Shown: in pieces, positions 11,709 to 19,175 of the stretch
How the letters are laid out: each line of letters begins with the position of its first letter
Position numbering within the stretch: the first letter of the stretch is position 1
Notes under the pieces: model-generated
Database searches by the model: none
Seen by the model: the letters and a program-made list of their open reading frames with translations, nothing else
What the model was told of the DNA's origin: nothing
Program-made: the position numbers and the translations under genes
Assembly (NCBI GenBank): GCA_945898015.1
Contig: CAMDGM010000001.1
Span: 1 to 64,000, forward strand
From: PVC group bacterium
Lineage (GTDB): Bacteria; Verrucomicrobiota; Kiritimatiellia; CAIKKV01
DNA: 64,000 bases
Direction: 5' to 3'

Positions 11709-11738
11709 TTGACGAACCCGCATTACGTTTGTTATGTG
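11709..11738 (+). promoter_or_regulatory. Possible rightward promoter of the glycan locus
   Basis: TTGACG (11709-11714) is a good -35 box; TATGTG (11733-11738), 18 bases on, is a weak -10 box inside the right operator arm. Initiation near 11745 would make the first rightward gene almost leaderless, which fits its missing ribosome site. A perfect TATAAT also occurs at 11698-11703 but has no good -35 partner. Either could be used. Confidence 0.3.
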
Positions 11739-11747
11739 TATCATATG
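11731..11747. promoter_or_regulatory. Right arm of 17-base inverted repeat (candidate operator)
   Basis: GTTATGTGTATCATATG, an exact inverted copy of 11640-11656 with 74 bases between the arms. It sits in front of the rightward transglutaminase-fold gene and overlaps the possible -10 box. The symmetric placement at both divergent promoters argues for one regulator controlling both operons. Confidence 0.6.
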
Positions 11748-11753
11748 TGTTGC

Positions 11754-13613
11754 ATGACGGCCCCCATCTACTCGCCGCGAGTCGTCGGCGAACAGCGCGC
11801 AGATTTATACAGCCTCGAAACCCTGCTCGCCTTCCCCGCCTTCGCCGGCCGAAAGGGGGAGGCCCTGGCCTTGGCTCTCTACGACTACCTGACCAGTCCC
11901 GTGGATGGCGTCTGGCACGGCTGGCCGCCCAACGAATCCGCCAGCGCACCCCTCGGCTGGGGCGACGTGAACGATCCCGTGAAACTTCTGAACGTCTACG
12001 GGTGGGCCATCTGCGCCCAAAACGCCGACTTGCTCCTCGGGCTCTTCCAGGCCGCCGGCCTCCCGGCCCGACTCCGCGGGCTACCCGGGCACGTCGTCTG
12101 CGAAGTCTCGTACGACGGCCTCTGGCATGTCCTGGACGCGGATATGCGCACGTGGTTCCGAGCGTCGGACGGGCACATCCTCGGCGTCGACGAACTGGCG
12201 CGAAACGCCCAGCCGCTCATCGTTGAAAACACGAACAAGTCCAACCCGTGCAACCTGCCGGACAGGAGTCTGGACGACTACGCCGGCATGTACGATCGGG
12301 CCAAGGGGGAAGCCTTCGTCTTCCCGTTCTGGGCCACACGGGCCCACTCCATGGACTTTATGCTTCGCCCCGGCGAAGCCCTGATCCGATCGCAGGTCCA
12401 CGAGGGCCGGTTCCCCCTGCCCAAGGCCTGGCTCCCGCTCCTGCGCGGCCCATCCGCGCATGAATGGAAGGGCCTTCCTCAAGAACGCTTCGCCCCCTTC
12501 CGCACCCTCGGCAACGGTCGCTGGACCTACGCCCCCGACCTCACCAACCGATCGCGCGATGTTGATCTCGGCGTGTGGAGCCGCTCCGGATTGACTCAGG
12601 ACGCGCACGGATTAAACGGCCCCGGAAGCGCCGTCTTCCGCATCCAGTCCCCCTATCCCTTCTGCGGGATACCCGACGCCCTGCACCCGGAAACGCCGCC
12701 CTCCAACGGCGTCTGGCTGGCCCTGGCCGGCGAGGGCGCGGTGACCGCCGAAGTAACGGACGCCGAGGACCGCTTTGTCAGCGTCGCCACAACGCATGGC
12801 GTCTTCTCCCTGAAACCCGACATCACGCCCCTTCTGGATGCCCGGTACACCGCCCTGATTCGCCTGACGCTGGCCCCGGGCGCACGACTCACCGCCTTCG
12901 CCTTCGACGGCTACCTCCTGACGGCCCCTCTCTCCCTCCCGCGCCTGGCGGAAGGCCCAAACCGCATGACCCTGCGGAGCGGCGACAAGTTCGGCAAGCC
13001 CACGCTGCCGTGGACCATGCCCGTGGATTTCCGCTCCGAGACGGCGCTTCGACGGACACTGGTCTGGCTGGAGAGCGGAGCCCCGCAGCCGTGGAAGCGG
13101 AACCGCCTGCGCATCGTGCCTGCCGCCTCAGGACCAGCCCGGGCCATCTTCCGTTTCGAGGCGCCCGAGCCGCGGCGCTTCGCCTGGGCCTATGCCATCG
13201 CCACCGTGCCGGAAGGCCCGCCGAAGGCTCCGCCCCGTCAGGCCCATCTGGACTGGAGCACGGACGGCTCGAACTGGACCCCCCTCAGCCGGCTGGCAAT
13301 CCCCTCCACCCCCCTGCAATGGGATGCCAGCCTGGATGGCAATTGCGTTCCCGCCGCGGCCTGCCCAACCCTCTGGCTGCGGGTGACCAGCGAGACCGGC
13401 CTCATCGCCCTTGAGCTGGCGGGCCATCTGGAGGCACCCCCGTGCCCTGACGCTCTGCAGATCACCCACCTCTGGACAGAGGACGACGTCCCCCGGAAAT
13501 TCACCGCACCACCCGGTCGGGCGTCCTACGAACTCGTGTGCGGCAAAAACCCACAAGCCCACACGATCGAACTGCGGGCGCCAAGGAGCGTACGTCATGA
13601 TCCCTCCCCCTAG
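11754..13613 (+). CDS. Transglutaminase-fold protein with beta-sandwich C-terminus
   Basis: About 619 residues, no signal peptide seen. The N-terminal 140 residues match the transglutaminase-like core (papain fold): Cys87 in YGWAICAQNA, His113 in GHVVCEV and Asp128 or Asp130 in WHVLDAD form the expected Cys-His-Asp triad, with the usual spacing. Such domains act as proteases, transglutaminases or amidases. The remaining 480 residues are beta-rich with TDGSNWTPLS and WLRVTSETG, like carbohydrate-binding or Ig-like modules; I do not recognise them precisely. ATG at 11754 is chosen because the protein family-like sequence begins right after it; ATG 11745 and TTG 11709 are in frame, and none has a clear ribosome site. 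It is the first rightward gene and overlaps the next by 17 bases. Role in the glycan locus unknown. Confidence 0.72.
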   Translation: MTAPIYSPRVVGEQRADLYSLETLLAFPAFAGRKGEALALALYDYLTSPVDGVWHGWPPNESASAPLGWGDVNDPVKLLNVYGWAICAQNADLLLGLFQAAGLPARLRGLPGHVVCEVSYDGLWHVLDADMRTWFRASDGHILGVDELARNAQPLIVENTNKSNPCNLPDRSLDDYAGMYDRAKGEAFVFPFWATRAHSMDFMLRPGEALIRSQVHEGRFPLPKAWLPLLRGPSAHEWKGLPQERFAPFRTLGNGRWTYAPDLTNRSRDVDLGVWSRSGLTQDAHGLNGPGSAVFRIQSPYPFCGIPDALHPETPPSNGVWLALAGEGAVTAEVTDAEDRFVSVATTHGVFSLKPDITPLLDARYTALIRLTLAPGARLTAFAFDGYLLTAPLSLPRLAEGPNRMTLRSGDKFGKPTLPWTMPVDFRSETALRRTLVWLESGAPQPWKRNRLRIVPAASGPARAIFRFEAPEPRRFAWAYAIATVPEGPPKAPPRQAHLDWSTDGSNWTPLSRLAIPSTPLQWDASLDGNCVPAAACPTLWLRVTSETGLIALELAGHLEAPPCPDALQITHLWTEDDVPRKFTAPPGRASYELVCGKNPQAHTIELRAPRSVRHDPSP

Positions 13614-16443
13614 ACACATCCTCTCTCCACGCCGCAGGCCCGCCGCCGAAGTCCTCGCTGCCCTGATCCTGACGGCCGCATGCCTGGCGTCGGCGGACAC
13701 CGTGACGGTCCGGGCCAACCGCCATGCCTCGCTCAGCGACCATCCGACCGAGCGGGACAGGGTGCAGGCCAACCGCGGTTCGATGAAAATCAAATACTTC
13801 GAGGAGTTCGGCCTCGTGGGGTTCGACGTCTCCCCGCTCAAAGGGAAAAAAATCAAGAGCGCCGTCCTCGCCGTGAAGCCCGCCGGCGGCCACACGTTCA
13901 ACCTCAACAACGGAACCGACCTCGCCTGGATCTCCCTCTCGTCCGTCTCCCTGGACTGGGACGTGAAGAAGGTCTGCGCAAACCGCTCCGGACTTCGGGA
14001 CGACTGGGGCTGGCCCGGCGCGCGTCTCTACGACGTCGTGCTCGGCAACGGCAACAGCCTGCGCTGTAACGGACGCCTCGAGCCCTCGGCCGGCGCCCAT
14101 AAAATGCCGCTCGACCCGAAACTCGTCGAGGCGCTGGTGGCCGGCGCCAGTTCCGGGTTGCTCATCGCGGATGGATCGACCAGCTACAGCCTGAACTGCC
14201 GCATCGCCGGCGACGTCACGATCGAAGTCGTCACCGACGGAGCCGATACGCAGGCCCCGCCTCCGCCGGCCAACCTCACCGCGGCGCCGGCCCCCAACGA
14301 CGCCACGGCCGAGTTCGGCGCCCTTGCCCTGTCGGTGACGGCGCCGGAGGACGCGCTCACCTACGACATCGCCGTGAATGGGCAGGCGTTGCCGCGCTGG
14401 CAGATCCCGTTCGCCACACCCGGCGCCATCCAGGCGTTCCCTCTCGTAAACCTGCCGCCCTCCGCCGACGTGCGCCTCGAGGTCGCGGTCGTGGATGCCG
14501 CGGGGAATCGCTCGAGTCCGGTGACGCTGACCGGCAGGACAAGCCCGAGTCTCACGGTGCCGATCCTGCCGGGCTCCGCGTTCCAACCGACCCCTGGCGA
14601 CCCGCGACCGCTGGCCGGGGCCAGGGTGTATGCCTTCCCCGAAGTCACCGAAATCGATCCGGTGACCGGCAAGGTGCTGCACGAGGCTGTCACCGATTTC
14701 AGCCGCGCCAATCCCGTCTGGGACGGCGCGTCGGGCGCCGTGCGGCTGGCCGCCGCCCGCGGCGAGATCGCCAGCTTCCAGCTGGCCATCGAAGGCCGCA
14801 TCAAGGGCGTTTCAATCACCCTGTCGGACCTGGCCGGCCCCGGCACGATCAACAACCGCAACGTGCGGCTGTGGCGGAACTGGTATGTCCGGAACCAGCC
14901 CGAATACGCGCTGCCGCTTGCCGGCGCCGTGGACTGCCCCATGGCAGACAATGCCGTCACCAGCCAGACCCACCAGGCGGTGACAGTGGACTGCTTCATC
15001 CCGCCGGCCACGCCGCCCGGCGACTATGCCGGCACGATCGAACTCGCCTCCGGCGCCGATCGCCTCGCGATCCCGCTGCGAATCAAGGTCTATTCGGCCA
15101 CGATTCCGGACGACATCCATTTCAACCCCGAACTGAACTGCTACAGCGGTCCCGGCCGGGCCGGCAGCGACCAGTTCCGGAACAGCTTCCGCCTCGCGCA
15201 CTACAACCGCTGCACGATCAACCGCGTCCCCTACAGCCAGCAGGGCCGGGTCCATGACGACTACGCGCCCGCGGTGGATGCGGCGGGCAAGGTCACCGAC
15301 TGGACCCCGTTCGACAACAACCTGGGCGGACTGCTCGACGGCTCGTGGTTCAGGGACAACCCCCGCTCGGGCGTGCCGGTCGCCAGCCTGTACCTGCCGC
15401 TTTTCGAGGGCTGGCCCCTGGACTTCCAGGCGCATTACCGGCCGGGCCCCGGCGTCCCCCCCACCTCCCCGGATCACGCCGCCAACGTCCGGCACCACAT
15501 CCTGGCCCGGCCGGCCGATGAAGCCTTCGACACGGCCTTCAAAACCGCATTCGTCAACACCGTGCGCGACTTCCACGCGCATGCCCGCGAGAAAGGATGG
15601 ACGCGCACGGCGTTCCAGTGCTACCTGAACAACAAGTCCAAATTCGGGTACACCCGGTGGACCCTGGACGAGCCGAATGTCTATCGCGACTGGGAGGTCC
15701 TCAATTTCTTCGGCGCGCTCTGGAAACAAGGCATCAACGACCCCGCCCTCTATACGCCCCAGTGGCACGACGCCCTCTTCCGGGTGGGGCTCGCCGGGAT
15801 GAAACGCGCCGGCCCGACCTTCCTCTTCCGCGGCGACATCTCCCGGCCCACCTGGCAAGGCAACCTGTCAGACGGCCTCATGACGGCCATGTATGTGAAC
15901 GGCGGCGGGTTCGACAAACGGCGCCTGATCCAGAACCACAAACGCCGGATGCCGTGCGTCATGTATGCCTATGGCGCCTGCGCCCCTTTTGAGAAAAGCA
16001 ACTGGGACAACGCCGCCTGGTGCCTGAAGGCTTACGCCGGGGAGTCCGATGGCGTCCTGCCCTGGCAATCCCTCGGCAAGGGATTGGCCAATCCCGATCC
16101 GCCTGACAGCGGCAACGCCCTCATCGTGGATGCCGGCAGTCCGTATGGCAACGCGATCGGCTCCCTCCGTCTGCACGCTTTGCGGCGCGGCGCGCAGGAC
16201 TGCGAACTGCTGCGCCTCCTGCAGCTCAAGCAGGGCTGGTCCCGCCAGCACGTGGGCCTGCTGGTGTCCCAGAAGGTCCCTCTCGACAGCCAATACAAGC
16301 CGCGTTTCACCGACGACGCAACGGCCACCACCTTCGGCCCGCTAAGCAGCCAGGGCTTTGTCGAACTGAAGGAAGGTGTCTTGAAACTGCTGGAGACCCC
16401 CCTGAACCCGGCCCCCTTGAGTCACGCCGGGTCCGCCCCATGA
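13597..16443 (+). CDS. Exported DNRLRE-like / DUF4091 protein
   Basis: About 948 residues with an arginine-rich N-terminus followed by a hydrophobic signal segment (AAEVLAALILTAACLASAD). The first module (about 35-225, with DTVTVRANRHASLSD and VGFDVSPLKGKKIKSAVLAV) resembles DNRLRE/CBM96-type beta-sandwiches that bind carbohydrate. An Fn3-like segment (DAALTYDIAVNG-like, about 230-310) follows. The rest is a DUF4091-type protein like the one at 336-2363: PPATPPGDYAGTIEL in the beta domain and the C-terminal hallmark ALRRGAQDCELLRL. AAGGAG eight bases before the ATG fixes the start. It overlaps the transglutaminase-fold gene by 17 bases and is coupled to the peptidase/acetyltransferase gene by ATGA. 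Probably acts outside the cytoplasm on polysaccharide; activity not established. Confidence 0.78.
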   Translation: MIPPPRHILSPRRRPAAEVLAALILTAACLASADTVTVRANRHASLSDHPTERDRVQANRGSMKIKYFEEFGLVGFDVSPLKGKKIKSAVLAVKPAGGHTFNLNNGTDLAWISLSSVSLDWDVKKVCANRSGLRDDWGWPGARLYDVVLGNGNSLRCNGRLEPSAGAHKMPLDPKLVEALVAGASSGLLIADGSTSYSLNCRIAGDVTIEVVTDGADTQAPPPPANLTAAPAPNDATAEFGALALSVTAPEDALTYDIAVNGQALPRWQIPFATPGAIQAFPLVNLPPSADVRLEVAVVDAAGNRSSPVTLTGRTSPSLTVPILPGSAFQPTPGDPRPLAGARVYAFPEVTEIDPVTGKVLHEAVTDFSRANPVWDGASGAVRLAAARGEIASFQLAIEGRIKGVSITLSDLAGPGTINNRNVRLWRNWYVRNQPEYALPLAGAVDCPMADNAVTSQTHQAVTVDCFIPPATPPGDYAGTIELASGADRLAIPLRIKVYSATIPDDIHFNPELNCYSGPGRAGSDQFRNSFRLAHYNRCTINRVPYSQQGRVHDDYAPAVDAAGKVTDWTPFDNNLGGLLDGSWFRDNPRSGVPVASLYLPLFEGWPLDFQAHYRPGPGVPPTSPDHAANVRHHILARPADEAFDTAFKTAFVNTVRDFHAHAREKGWTRTAFQCYLNNKSKFGYTRWTLDEPNVYRDWEVLNFFGALWKQGINDPALYTPQWHDALFRVGLAGMKRAGPTFLFRGDISRPTWQGNLSDGLMTAMYVNGGGFDKRRLIQNHKRRMPCVMYAYGACAPFEKSNWDNAAWCLKAYAGESDGVLPWQSLGKGLANPDPPDSGNALIVDAGSPYGNAIGSLRLHALRRGAQDCELLRLLQLKQGWSRQHVGLLVSQKVPLDSQYKPRFTDDATATTFGPLSSQGFVELKEGVLKLLETPLNPAPLSHAGSAP

Positions 16444-19175
16444 ACAATCAACAACGATCGCAAGAAACAACGGTCCGTATGGAATGGCTGCCGGAAACCC
16501 GTGAAGCCGCTGCCGCGTTCCGCCCCCGACGCGCCCTGGAGACGATCCGCCAGCTGTGGAAGGCGACGCGCGGCATGGACTCGCGGGCCGTGCAGAAAGC
16601 CGCGGAAATCGCCGCCGCCGAACTGCGAAAGGCGAAGCTGGATGACGTCTCAATCGAGGCGCTTCCGGCCGATGGCCGCACGGTGTTCGGCGGCTGGCTG
16701 ATGCCCGTTTCCTGGACGGTCGACGAAGCTCGCCTCGAGACGGCCGCCACCGGACAAAACGGGGAGACATGGGCGGACTATGCCGCGACGCCCCAGAGCC
16801 TCGCCCTGTATAGCCCTCCCACCCCGCGCGGCGATTGGGTGCAAGGACCCGTGGTGCCGGCGCCGGATGTGGAATCCGTGGCAGGACGATTGGCGGGGGC
16901 CTTTCTGTGCCTTGAGTCGGGCATGGGTTCGGCCGAGATCAACGAGGAGGCGGCCCGTTCAGGGGCGCTGGGCGTGATCGTCAGCATGCCGAACGAAAAC
17001 CCGTCCGCCGTCCGCTACGTCAACTACGCGGTCCCCCTTGACGCCGGCCGGGCCTGCGTGCCCTGCTTCTCCCTGTCGCCAACCGCCTATGCACGCCTCC
17101 GGGCCCTGCTGCGGACGGACCCGCGCATGCGCCTGCGAGCGCGCGTGCGGGCCTCCCGCTCGACGGCCGGCTCGACTCCGCTCGTCACCGCCACGCTCGG
17201 ACAAGGCCAGCCCGAGGTCTATCTCTGCGCGCATCTCGACGAGCCGGGGGCGCAGGACAACGCCTCGGGAGTCGGTGTGGCCATCGAGGCCCTGCGAGCG
17301 ATCCAGGCGGCCGGCCGCGGCCCGGCGCGCCGCCCCCCCCTGAGGGCCATCCGCGTGTTCTTCTCCGTGGAAGTGCGGGGACTGCAGGCATGGGCGAACA
17401 GCATCCCGAAAATGCCCGCCTTCGTGGCTGGCCTCAACCTGGACATGGTCGGCCGTGAGCCCGAGACACTCGGCCTCATGCGCCTCGGCCGCGGATGGCC
17501 GGGCCAACCACATTTCGCCCCTTATCTCCTGGAGGCCGCCGCGCGCCTGGCCGATCGACAGGTCGGGCATCTGCGCCGTCGCGCGGGCGCATGCGGTATC
17601 AGCGACGCTCTGGTCGGGATGGACTCCGCACCCGGACACGTATCGCTGGAGCAAACAACAGACGCGACCTACCACACCTCCGCCGACGTGCCCGCCCTCC
17701 TCTCCGCGAGAGTCATTCATTGGTCAGGCGTGGCCACGACGGCGTTCCTGCATGCGGCGACGCATCTCGACAACCGGCAAGCCCTTGGGCTCGCGAGGCG
17801 TCTGGCCCGGCGCGCCTCGGACGGCCTGCGTGCGCGGCCTTCCGAGGCGCCGGCCATCCAGTCCCGGGCCAAAGCCGAACTGGCCTCCCTGCGCTCGGTC
17901 CTGGGCAAGCCGAAGTTGTTCGGAGACTGGCGCTCGCCGGCGGACCTCTACCGGGCCGGCGTGCGTCGCGGATCCGGATGCTGGCCGGAGGTCGAGGATC
18001 GCCGGCGGCTCGAAACCCTGATCGCGTCCCTGCCGTTGTCTCGTCCAAGCCCCGGAAACGATTCCCCGGCGGCTATGCGGGCGCGGCGCGAAGCCAAGGG
18101 CCTGGTTCCCCAGGTGACCTTCCGCGGTTTTCTCTCCTTCGAGGACCACACCTCGCCGGCCGCGCGCGCGGATCTGGCGGAAACCCTGGGCCTGACGCCG
18201 CAATGGGCGACCGCAGCCTGGGCGTGGCTGCTGGCCGCGCGTCTGCGGGGCAAGTCCACCCTGGCCGGGGCCGTGGACGAACTCCAAGAGCAGGGCGTGG
18301 CGGTGGAGATTCGAAAGGCGCTGGCGCTGACCCGTTATCTGGTCAGAACCGGCAAGGCCCGGTTGCGGCCCATCCTGAATGCAGAGGTTCTGGGCCGGGC
18401 CTTCCAGGCCATCGGCGTAAGGCGCGGTTCGATCTTGTGCGTACAGTCCTCGTTAAGCCAGTTCGGCTACATTCCAGGGGGCCCGCCGACGCTGGTGAAG
18501 GCGCTTCTGGAAGTGCTGGGGCCGGACGGGACGCTGTGCATCCCGACGCACTCGCTCAGCGTGCTCGGAGCCGAGCCGTACGATCCGCAGCGTTCGCCCT
18601 CGGTCCTGGGTGCCGTGAGCGAGTATTTCCTCCGTCATCCCGGCGTGATCCGTAGCGCGCATCCGACCCACTCGGTCGCCGCCGTAGGCCCCGCCGCCCG
18701 CGCGCTGACCCGCCTGTCGAAACCGGTCTCGGCCCCCATGGCTCGCGACGGATTCTGGGGGAAGCTCTACGATGCCGGCGGCGACGTGCTGCTGCTCTGT
18801 CCCGTGGGGAGCGCAACGATCCTCCACGTCGGGGAAACGTGGACCGGAGTGCCGCAGCCAGCGCTCGTCGTGCACCTCAGGGACGCGGCGGGCAAACGGC
18901 GCGTGGCCGTGCAACCGCAGGCGCCCTGGCATTCAGACCATTTCGAGAAAACCCTGGTGAACCCGCTCCTGAAAACCGGCGTCATGCGCTCCGCCACGCT
19001 CGGTGACGGCACGGCTTATCTCGGTCCTGCACGCGCCATGGCCGACATCAGCGTGGCCGTCAACCGCACCAATCCGCTCGTCAGTCTTGGCCGGAACGGG
19101 GCATGCAGCTGCTTTTACTGCCGCGTCCTCCGCCTCGGCGTCGAGCGGGGTGGTTATTCCCCTCAGGCACCATAA
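16440..19175 (+). CDS. M28-type peptidase fused to AAC(3)-type N-acetyltransferase
   Basis: One 911-residue frame joins two enzymes. Residues about 1-445 are an M28 metallopeptidase with a PA-like insert (about 130-235). The zinc ligands appear as H265-L-D, D273 in QDNASG, E311 in SVEVRG, D335 in LDMVG and H412 in TYHTS; the usual double Glu is reduced to a single Glu. A helical linker (about 450-640), perhaps winged-helix-like, leads to residues 645-905, an aminoglycoside 3-N-acetyltransferase-type domain: SSLSQFGYIPGG, GPDGTLCIPT, the conserved HPTHSVAAVG (741-750) and LHVGETWTGVP. AAC(3)-fold enzymes move an acetyl or other acyl group from CoA to a sugar amine. No signal peptide, so cytoplasmic. 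It ends the rightward operon, coupled to the DUF4091 gene. Cleaving a peptide and acylating the exposed amine is an attractive but untested reading. Confidence 0.8.
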   Translation: MNNQQRSQETTVRMEWLPETREAAAAFRPRRALETIRQLWKATRGMDSRAVQKAAEIAAAELRKAKLDDVSIEALPADGRTVFGGWLMPVSWTVDEARLETAATGQNGETWADYAATPQSLALYSPPTPRGDWVQGPVVPAPDVESVAGRLAGAFLCLESGMGSAEINEEAARSGALGVIVSMPNENPSAVRYVNYAVPLDAGRACVPCFSLSPTAYARLRALLRTDPRMRLRARVRASRSTAGSTPLVTATLGQGQPEVYLCAHLDEPGAQDNASGVGVAIEALRAIQAAGRGPARRPPLRAIRVFFSVEVRGLQAWANSIPKMPAFVAGLNLDMVGREPETLGLMRLGRGWPGQPHFAPYLLEAAARLADRQVGHLRRRAGACGISDALVGMDSAPGHVSLEQTTDATYHTSADVPALLSARVIHWSGVATTAFLHAATHLDNRQALGLARRLARRASDGLRARPSEAPAIQSRAKAELASLRSVLGKPKLFGDWRSPADLYRAGVRRGSGCWPEVEDRRRLETLIASLPLSRPSPGNDSPAAMRARREAKGLVPQVTFRGFLSFEDHTSPAARADLAETLGLTPQWATAAWAWLLAARLRGKSTLAGAVDELQEQGVAVEIRKALALTRYLVRTGKARLRPILNAEVLGRAFQAIGVRRGSILCVQSSLSQFGYIPGGPPTLVKALLEVLGPDGTLCIPTHSLSVLGAEPYDPQRSPSVLGAVSEYFLRHPGVIRSAHPTHSVAAVGPAARALTRLSKPVSAPMARDGFWGKLYDAGGDVLLLCPVGSATILHVGETWTGVPQPALVVHLRDAAGKRRVAVQPQAPWHSDHFEKTLVNPLLKTGVMRSATLGDGTAYLGPARAMADISVAVNRTNPLVSLGRNGACSCFYCRVLRLGVERGGYSPQAP

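Follow-up and report, generated by a model that had tools for sequence, protein, structure and literature searches.

An M28-fold domain and an AAC(3)-type N-acetyltransferase form a recurrent single-gene fusion in a PVC group bacterium and its relatives

The window analysed here comprises 64,000 nucleotides of a PVC group bacterium (GTDB lineage Bacteria; Verrucomicrobiota; Kiritimatiellia; CAIKKV01; GenBank assembly GCA_945898015.1, contig CAMDGM010000001.1, positions 1 to 64,000), and contains on its forward strand a gene (16440-19175) whose product joins a domain of the peptidase M28 fold to an N-acetyltransferase domain of the AAC(3) type in one chain of 911 residues. Our analysis supports the view that this single-gene pairing recurs in many genomes and that both of its halves are strongly constrained; the architecture, the two folds, the conservation and the recurrence follow directly from computation.

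With regard to function, an acyl swap on an amino sugar is the most likely mechanism, and a non-catalytic M28-like half is its main rival. We tentatively read the protein as a two-site cytosolic enzyme that would first deacylate the nitrogen of an amino sugar and then acetylate the amine, a reading held with confidence that falls short of even. The protein is presumably cytosolic, as no signal peptide is evident by eye and the proposed reaction needs acetyl-CoA.

Two folds in one reading frame

The gene was confirmed as a single open frame, as the original prediction had described it. A Pfam scan of the whole protein up to E 1 identified Antibiotic_NAT (PF02522; residues 668-873, 151 bits against a cut-off of 25, E 5e-44) and Peptidase_M28 (PF04389; residues 251-426, 44.8 bits against a cut-off of 21.3, E 1.5e-11) and no family beyond these two; a PA domain was not reported, and residues 444-641 were without a match. 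An AlphaFold2 model built with 17 fused homologs (mean predicted local distance difference test score, pLDDT, 85.7; predicted template modelling score, pTM, 0.86) recovered both the M28 fold and the AAC(3) fold. The first half of the model matched BSAP (6hc7; Z 28.0, 373 residues, root-mean-square deviation, rmsd, 3.6), which together with the Pfam score places it in the Peptidase M28 fold, as well as CA_C2195 (3k9t; Z 26.6, 364 of 422 residues, rmsd 3.6), to which a profile match was also found (E 3.7e-16). BSAP, which belongs to M28, carries a PA domain as an insert, and the fit to it over 371-373 residues supports the PA-like insert that had been proposed from the sequence; part of this insert aligns, by profile, with the DUF2172 portion of CA_C2195. 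Model residues 641-901 matched AAC(3)-IVa (6mn3; Z 28.9, 251 residues, rmsd 2.1), BA2930 (3e4f; Z 27.2) and FrbF (3sma; Z 25.5), so that Pfam score and fold agree on a full AAC(3)-type domain, in which the predicted motifs HPTHSVAAVG and HVGETWTGVP are both present. In the predicted model the mostly helical linker (residues 444-641) may include a winged-helix domain like HTH_47.

Recurrence of the pairing

A homolog search of 97 genomes of the wider group (E 0.001) found some match to the window protein in 17 of them, including full-length fused homologs at 51-52% identity in two genomes of the same order (G005 and G002). A scan of contigs with the single window protein as query found no relative, and a second contig scan with an alignment (A1) found eight loci, most of them in metagenome-assembled genomes of Lentisphaeria, Victivallaceae, Lentisphaerae and Verrucomicrobia. 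A survey of the phylum with a profile of the M28 half (A3; 288 sampled genomes, E 1e-15), in which up to four candidates per genome were scored and counts are therefore lower bounds, identified at least 57 places in 36 genomes. According to an acetyltransferase profile and direct reading of the frames, 35 of these 57 places carry the acetyltransferase in the same frame, a proportion that may lean towards fused members as A3 was built largely from homologs of the fused protein, and at two more the acetyltransferase lies alongside as a separate frame. The tally used the 52 best acetyltransferase rows, and the remainder were checked by eye; this check found one more acetyltransferase on a contig with an unpartnered M28-half match, about 5 kb from it (G281:C58). 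One of the 57 places (G147, E 4e-16) has no counterpart in the set scanned with the acetyltransferase profile and is counted neither as fused nor as unfused; this match and the weak one at G281:C58 may be ordinary M28 peptidases.

Lentisphaerae bacterium ADurb.Bin242 apparently has three fused copies, with frames of 908, 919 and 895 codons. One of the two side-by-side pairs is in the genome of the window itself (G000:C60 2876-5307, L005), an AAC(3)-type gene followed by an M28-like gene; this pair resembles the fusion in the adjacency of the two families and in the invariant residues of its M28 half, but its genes are separate and the acetyltransferase comes first. The genes downstream of this pair presumably encode a glutamate 5-kinase and a gamma-glutamyl phosphate reductase, judging by eye. 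A literature search that covered few subscription journals found no description of an M28/AAC(3) fusion.

A conserved catalytic motif in the acetyltransferase half

In an alignment of 36 fused proteins (35 from the survey places, plus G058), T793, H796, E799 and H744 are invariant, C891 is present in 35 and C894 in 33. The published account of the family (PMC8956665) gives TxPhiHPhiAE, with a catalytic histidine, as its catalytic motif, and describes the zinc site of AAC(3)-IVa. The window protein carries this motif as T793-I-L-H796-V-G-E799 (TILHVGE), in which Thr, His and Glu are kept and Gly replaces Ala; H796 aligns with the catalytic histidine and with H183 of BA2930, which is changed to Ala or Gly in structures 3n0s and 3kzl. 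The C-terminal cysteine motif may be the counterpart of the AAC(3)-IVa zinc site. The original prediction that both halves may be active is borne out best here, as conserved residues make the predicted acetyltransferase activity well supported; for the M28 half, activity is possible and would depend on a non-canonical site.

A strictly kept but non-canonical site in the M28-like half

The M28 halves were compared in an alignment of 57 sequences, which comprised 55 survey places and one sequence each from G058 and G075, a set that differs from the 57 survey places. H265, E268, E311, D335 and H412 are invariant in all 57, and D273 is present in 54, with Asn in the other three. In canonical M28 enzymes an adjacent Glu-Glu pair supplies the general base and a zinc ligand. 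The original prediction of a complete set of M28 zinc ligands (H265, D273, E311, D335 and H412) numbered these residues correctly, but the set is not complete, with a single Glu in place of Glu-Glu: the residue after E311 (V312 in the window protein) is Glu in none of the 57 sequences and the residue before it (310) in one. Das et al. describe the M28 site as five zinc ligands plus an Asp and a Glu (PMC4000134); of a full site with five ligands, the Asp and the adjacent Glu-Glu, the window protein has H265, D267, D273, D335 and H412 with one Glu. Profile alignment to 2ek8 sets E311 on the first Glu of the pair, whereas by the register of Das et al. for CA_C2195, in which Pro225 occupies the place of the catalytic Glu (PMC4000134), E311 would sit on the second; judged from the alignments, one glutamate of the pair is absent in either register. 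Residues 14-312 folded alone (A5) gave a pLDDT of 91.7. In the 50 rows of the fold comparison made with this model, in which the aligner skipped the loop at the cut end, V312 lay opposite residue 431 in the majority of rows for glutamate carboxypeptidase II (opposite 424 in the 8bow row), opposite 347 (three rows) or 340 (two rows) of PaAP, and opposite 230 of 3k9t.

With five residues invariant in all 57 sequences, the pattern appears too strictly kept for decay and fits a working site better. E268 may have taken over part of the role of the lost Glu. Because the conserved site differs from the canonical one, we grade activity of this half as possible.

Relation to DUF4910

CA_C2195 (PDB 3k9t; 434 residues, unfused) is a DUF4910 (PF16254) protein with a DUF2172 insert and an HTH_47 domain, in which one zinc was modelled on H189, D195 and H324 (PMC4000134). 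The window protein shares its fold and had no match to PF16254 at E 1 (cut-off 26.6 bits). Among nine M28-half relatives that were scanned with this family, only L057 passed (45.3 bits); L005 (26.2 bits), L053 (24.2), L062 (22), L049 (20.4) and L055 (16.8) scored below the cut-off, and L047, L060 and L051 had no match. DUF4910 genes are reported near amino-sugar N-acetyltransferase genes, along with unspecified fusions, and Das et al. favour a role in making a modified (surface) carbohydrate, perhaps by sugar-amide transacylation or deacylation (PMC4000134). The window fusion is a new form of this already known gene association, which the M28/AAC(3) family fits and sharpens, in that the partner is of the AAC(3) type and, in most places found, part of the same chain.

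Gene neighbourhood and plasmid relatives

The ATG of the fusion gene shares four bases (ATGA) with the stop of the upstream frame (Table 1), and this overlap suggests that the two are co-transcribed; the true start of the upstream frame is probably later than called. Neither of the two upstream genes on the same strand matched Pfam or NCBIfam at E 0.01, and the recognisable carbohydrate genes near the fusion (GH94-like and DUF5060) lie on the opposite strand. The original prediction that the fusion ends an operon of glycan-use genes is partly right. A GH94-like gene also adjoins the L048 homolog.

Neighbours were counted at the first 17 fused loci as 88 frames, called as the longest non-overlapping open reading frames, some of which may not be genes (90 listed, less three shadow or small frames, two in the window and one at L056, plus one trimmed frame at L048). 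The commonest were sugar-type GntR regulators (4 of the 88), with CBM9, creatininase, EamA and many single families among the others. This context points to carbohydrate work in a general way only. The further suggestion that the protein serves catabolism of peptidyl-amino sugars is speculation: neighbours vary by genome, and the DUF4910 relatives are tied to making surface carbohydrates.

Plasmids were searched with three queries. The window protein matched through its acetyltransferase half only among the 12 matches listed of 3,251 records, tblastn with the M28 half of L057 hit 17 records, of which eight regions were examined, and the separate M28 gene of the window's own genome gave no match. 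One of the eight regions, on an Agrobacterium plasmid, has an AAC(3) gene and, downstream of it in the same orientation, the DUF4910 gene; an IS3 transposase gene separates the two, and the whole lies among pse and rfb genes.

Two further observations were made in relatives. A gene of the creatininase amidohydrolase family directly adjoins the fusion at two loci, each in a different related genome (L062 2797-3681 and L065 5913-6662). Separately, a second recurrent architecture in the phylum consists of frames of about 475-500 codons with an N-terminal AAC(3)-type domain; the C-terminal part of such frames (about 250 residues) had no Pfam match in the four scanned, save a weak xylose-isomerase-like TIM barrel (E 0.005) in one.

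Table 1. Positions of the fusion gene, its domains, upstream frames and related frames in other loci
Feature	Position	Strand	Remarks
Fusion gene	16440..19175	+	single open frame, 911 codons; full-length homologs in two other genomes
M28/DUF4910-like domain, first part	16491..16664	+	residues about 18-75; boundary from model; M28 fold matches begin at residues 4-23
PA-like insert	16665..17171	+	residues about 76-244, boundary approximate; profile alignment to 3k9t; BSAP and 3k9t matches span the insert
M28-like domain core	17172..17768	+	residues 245-443; Pfam and 57-sequence alignment; invariant H265, E268, E311, D335, H412; near-invariant D273
Linker, mostly helical	17769..18362	+	residues 444-641; predicted model
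AAC(3)-type N-acetyltransferase domain	18363..19079	+	residues 642-880; H744, T793, H796, E799; Pfam and fold match
C-terminal Cys motif	19104..19121	+	C891 and C894, conservation among 36 fused proteins
Upstream overlapping frame	13411..16443	+	1010 codons as called
Second upstream gene	11709-13613	+	634 codons as called
N-terminal AAC(3)-type frame, L121	1302-2723		
N-terminal AAC(3)-type frame, L122	1236-2726		
N-terminal AAC(3)-type frame, L123	97-1533		
N-terminal AAC(3)-type frame, L124			
N-terminal AAC(3)-type frame, L125	114-1589		

Proposed mechanism and its alternatives

Under the acyl-swap mechanism, the M28-like half, covered by a PA-like lid, would cleave an amide and release the acyl or aminoacyl group that the nitrogen carries; the rearranged metal site proposed for this step consists of H265, D273, D335 and H412, to which E268 and E311 would add two invariant carboxylates. 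In the AAC(3)-type half, an H796/E799 dyad would then move an acetyl group from acetyl-CoA to the freed amine. On balance, a single nitrogen of an amino sugar or a similar amine would exchange one acyl group for another. This mechanism presumes that the M28-like half binds metal and cleaves an amide, that both halves share one substrate, that this substrate is an amino sugar or the like, and that deacylation precedes acetylation. More broadly, a widespread family of such enzymes, each stripping the nitrogen of its N-acyl or aminoacyl group with a rearranged M28-type site (H-x-x-E ... D ... single E ... D ... H) and re-acetylating the amine with its AAC(3)-type site, is possible, if rather doubtful.

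In favour of the acyl swap are the recognition of both halves by Pfam and fold, the recurrence of the pairing, the nearby AAC(3) and DUF4910 genes of the Agrobacterium plasmid, the agreement of the two trees on close groups, and the invariant residues of each half. A number of observations weigh against it. In the M28-like half, one of the two adjacent glutamates is missing, the aspartate of the M28 HxD motif (D267 in the window protein) is Asp in just 3 of the 57 aligned sequences, and Das et al. propose that CA_C2195 and DUF4910 proteins are not conventional peptidases (PMC4000134). In the acetyltransferase half, the window protein has Q669 where the other 35 of the 36 fused proteins have His, a position that, by the offsets of the fold matches, probably corresponds to the one mutated in structure 6mmz (H29A). 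At 19 of the 57 places no acetyltransferase was found within 600 bases of the M28-like half, which therefore appears able to work without the fused partner, and the only genome of the same family that was searched (G001) had no match to the window protein. Neighbours are not conserved either: the 88 frames hold 153 Pfam families, none of them in more than four frames. Finally, the trees of the M28 and acetyltransferase halves, although they agree on close groups, conflict in their deep branches, where the M28 half joins L051 and L052 to a set of L055, L059, L060, L061, L063 and L064 (support 100/99) and the acetyltransferase half joins them to L057 and L058 instead (96/97); because of this conflict, and because unfused M28 halves are interspersed among fused ones, domain exchange or more than one fusion event may have occurred.

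The strongest alternative, which we regard as fairly unlikely, is that only the acetyltransferase half is catalytic and that the M28-like half serves as a substrate-binding or oligomerising module, like other dead M28 homologs. The canonical catalytic residues are indeed incomplete, transferrin receptor 1, a non-enzyme, is among the fold matches of the truncated model, and CA_C2195 has lost both catalytic residues, with receptor precedents noted (PMC4000134); however, residues that are invariant in 57 of 57 sequences are what one would expect if the metal site were in use, and D335 is kept where the residue of CA_C2195 aligned by profile is not Asp. We consider it unlikely that the M28-like half instead forms an amide, with an amino sugar as the acceptor of an aminoacyl, glutaminyl or peptidyl group, while the acetyltransferase acetylates another amine in synthesis of a modified surface sugar. 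For DUF4910, Das et al. have suggested that an amino sugar receives a peptide or glutamine by transacylation (PMC4000134), and six of the eight plasmid regions place the DUF4910 gene among nucleotide-sugar or polysaccharide genes, but the neighbours of the fused genes are a scattered mix, with glycosyltransferase family 2 in 2 of the 88 frames.

That both halves act on the same N-acetyl group, the M28-like half removing it (or another small acyl group) and the other restoring it, and thereby set the acetylation state of an amino sugar, strikes us as quite improbable: a futile cycle within one chain would need regulation, of which none was seen, even though the families and their conservation accord with such a cycle as well as with an acyl swap, and genes for PIG-L deacetylases lie near DUF4910 genes on four plasmids (two of Shinella, one of Roseateles and one of Qingshengfaniella). 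A resistance enzyme that inactivates aminoglycosides and bears an extra domain is very improbable. AAC(3)-IVa and FrbF are the closest solved acetyltransferases by sequence, AAC(3)-IVa is the closest by fold, and AAC_3_IV is the best NCBIfam model, but the score of 103.8 bits against a curated cut-off of 420 does not identify an AAC(3) resistance enzyme; FrbF, YokD and BA2930 are described as sharing the fold without aminoglycoside activity (PMC8956665), the gene lies among carbohydrate genes on a contig of 163,533 bases, and many genomes of the phylum have fused homologs. Finally, a joining of two genes by assembly or sequencing error, for which one could cite the separate pair in the window's own genome and the separate frames, 135 bases apart, of G292:C296 (L059), is excluded by the 36 fused frames that were read, among them the two full-length homologs from G005 and G002.

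The recurrence of the fusion in a single chain argues that the two halves act together, and a direct biochemical test is possible. If the acyl swap is true, it would give a function to DUF4910-like proteins, for which our literature search found none although structure 3k9t has been solved since 2009. It would also give AAC(3)-type enzymes a part in the metabolism of amino sugars, as a candidate source of AAC(3) resistance enzymes; many proteins of the AAC(3) fold appear to have no known native substrate.

Comparison with known systems

The acetyltransferase half shares its fold and the T-x-x-H-x-x-E motif with the AAC(3) family (AAC(3)-IVa, BA2930 and FrbF), and differs from it in the fusion to an M28-like domain, in scores far under the NCBIfam cut-offs, in the Gly that replaces the motif Ala and in Q669. 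The M28-like half has the fold of BSAP/YwaD (6hc6, 6hc7), 2ek8 and the Aeromonas proteolytica aminopeptidase 1amp, with matching motifs at H265, D267, D273, D335 and H412, and a PA-like insert in common with BSAP and 2ek8; unlike the members of Peptidase family M28, it has a single Glu followed by a shortened loop, an extra invariant Glu (E268), a fused acetyltransferase and no evident signal peptide. It is like CA_C2195 in its M28-like fold, PA-derived insert, non-canonical site and lack of a predicted signal peptide, and both are associated with N-acetyltransferases that act, or may act, on amino sugars, but in the window family D335 and the invariant E268 are kept, and the acetyltransferase is part of the same frame at 35 of the 57 places.

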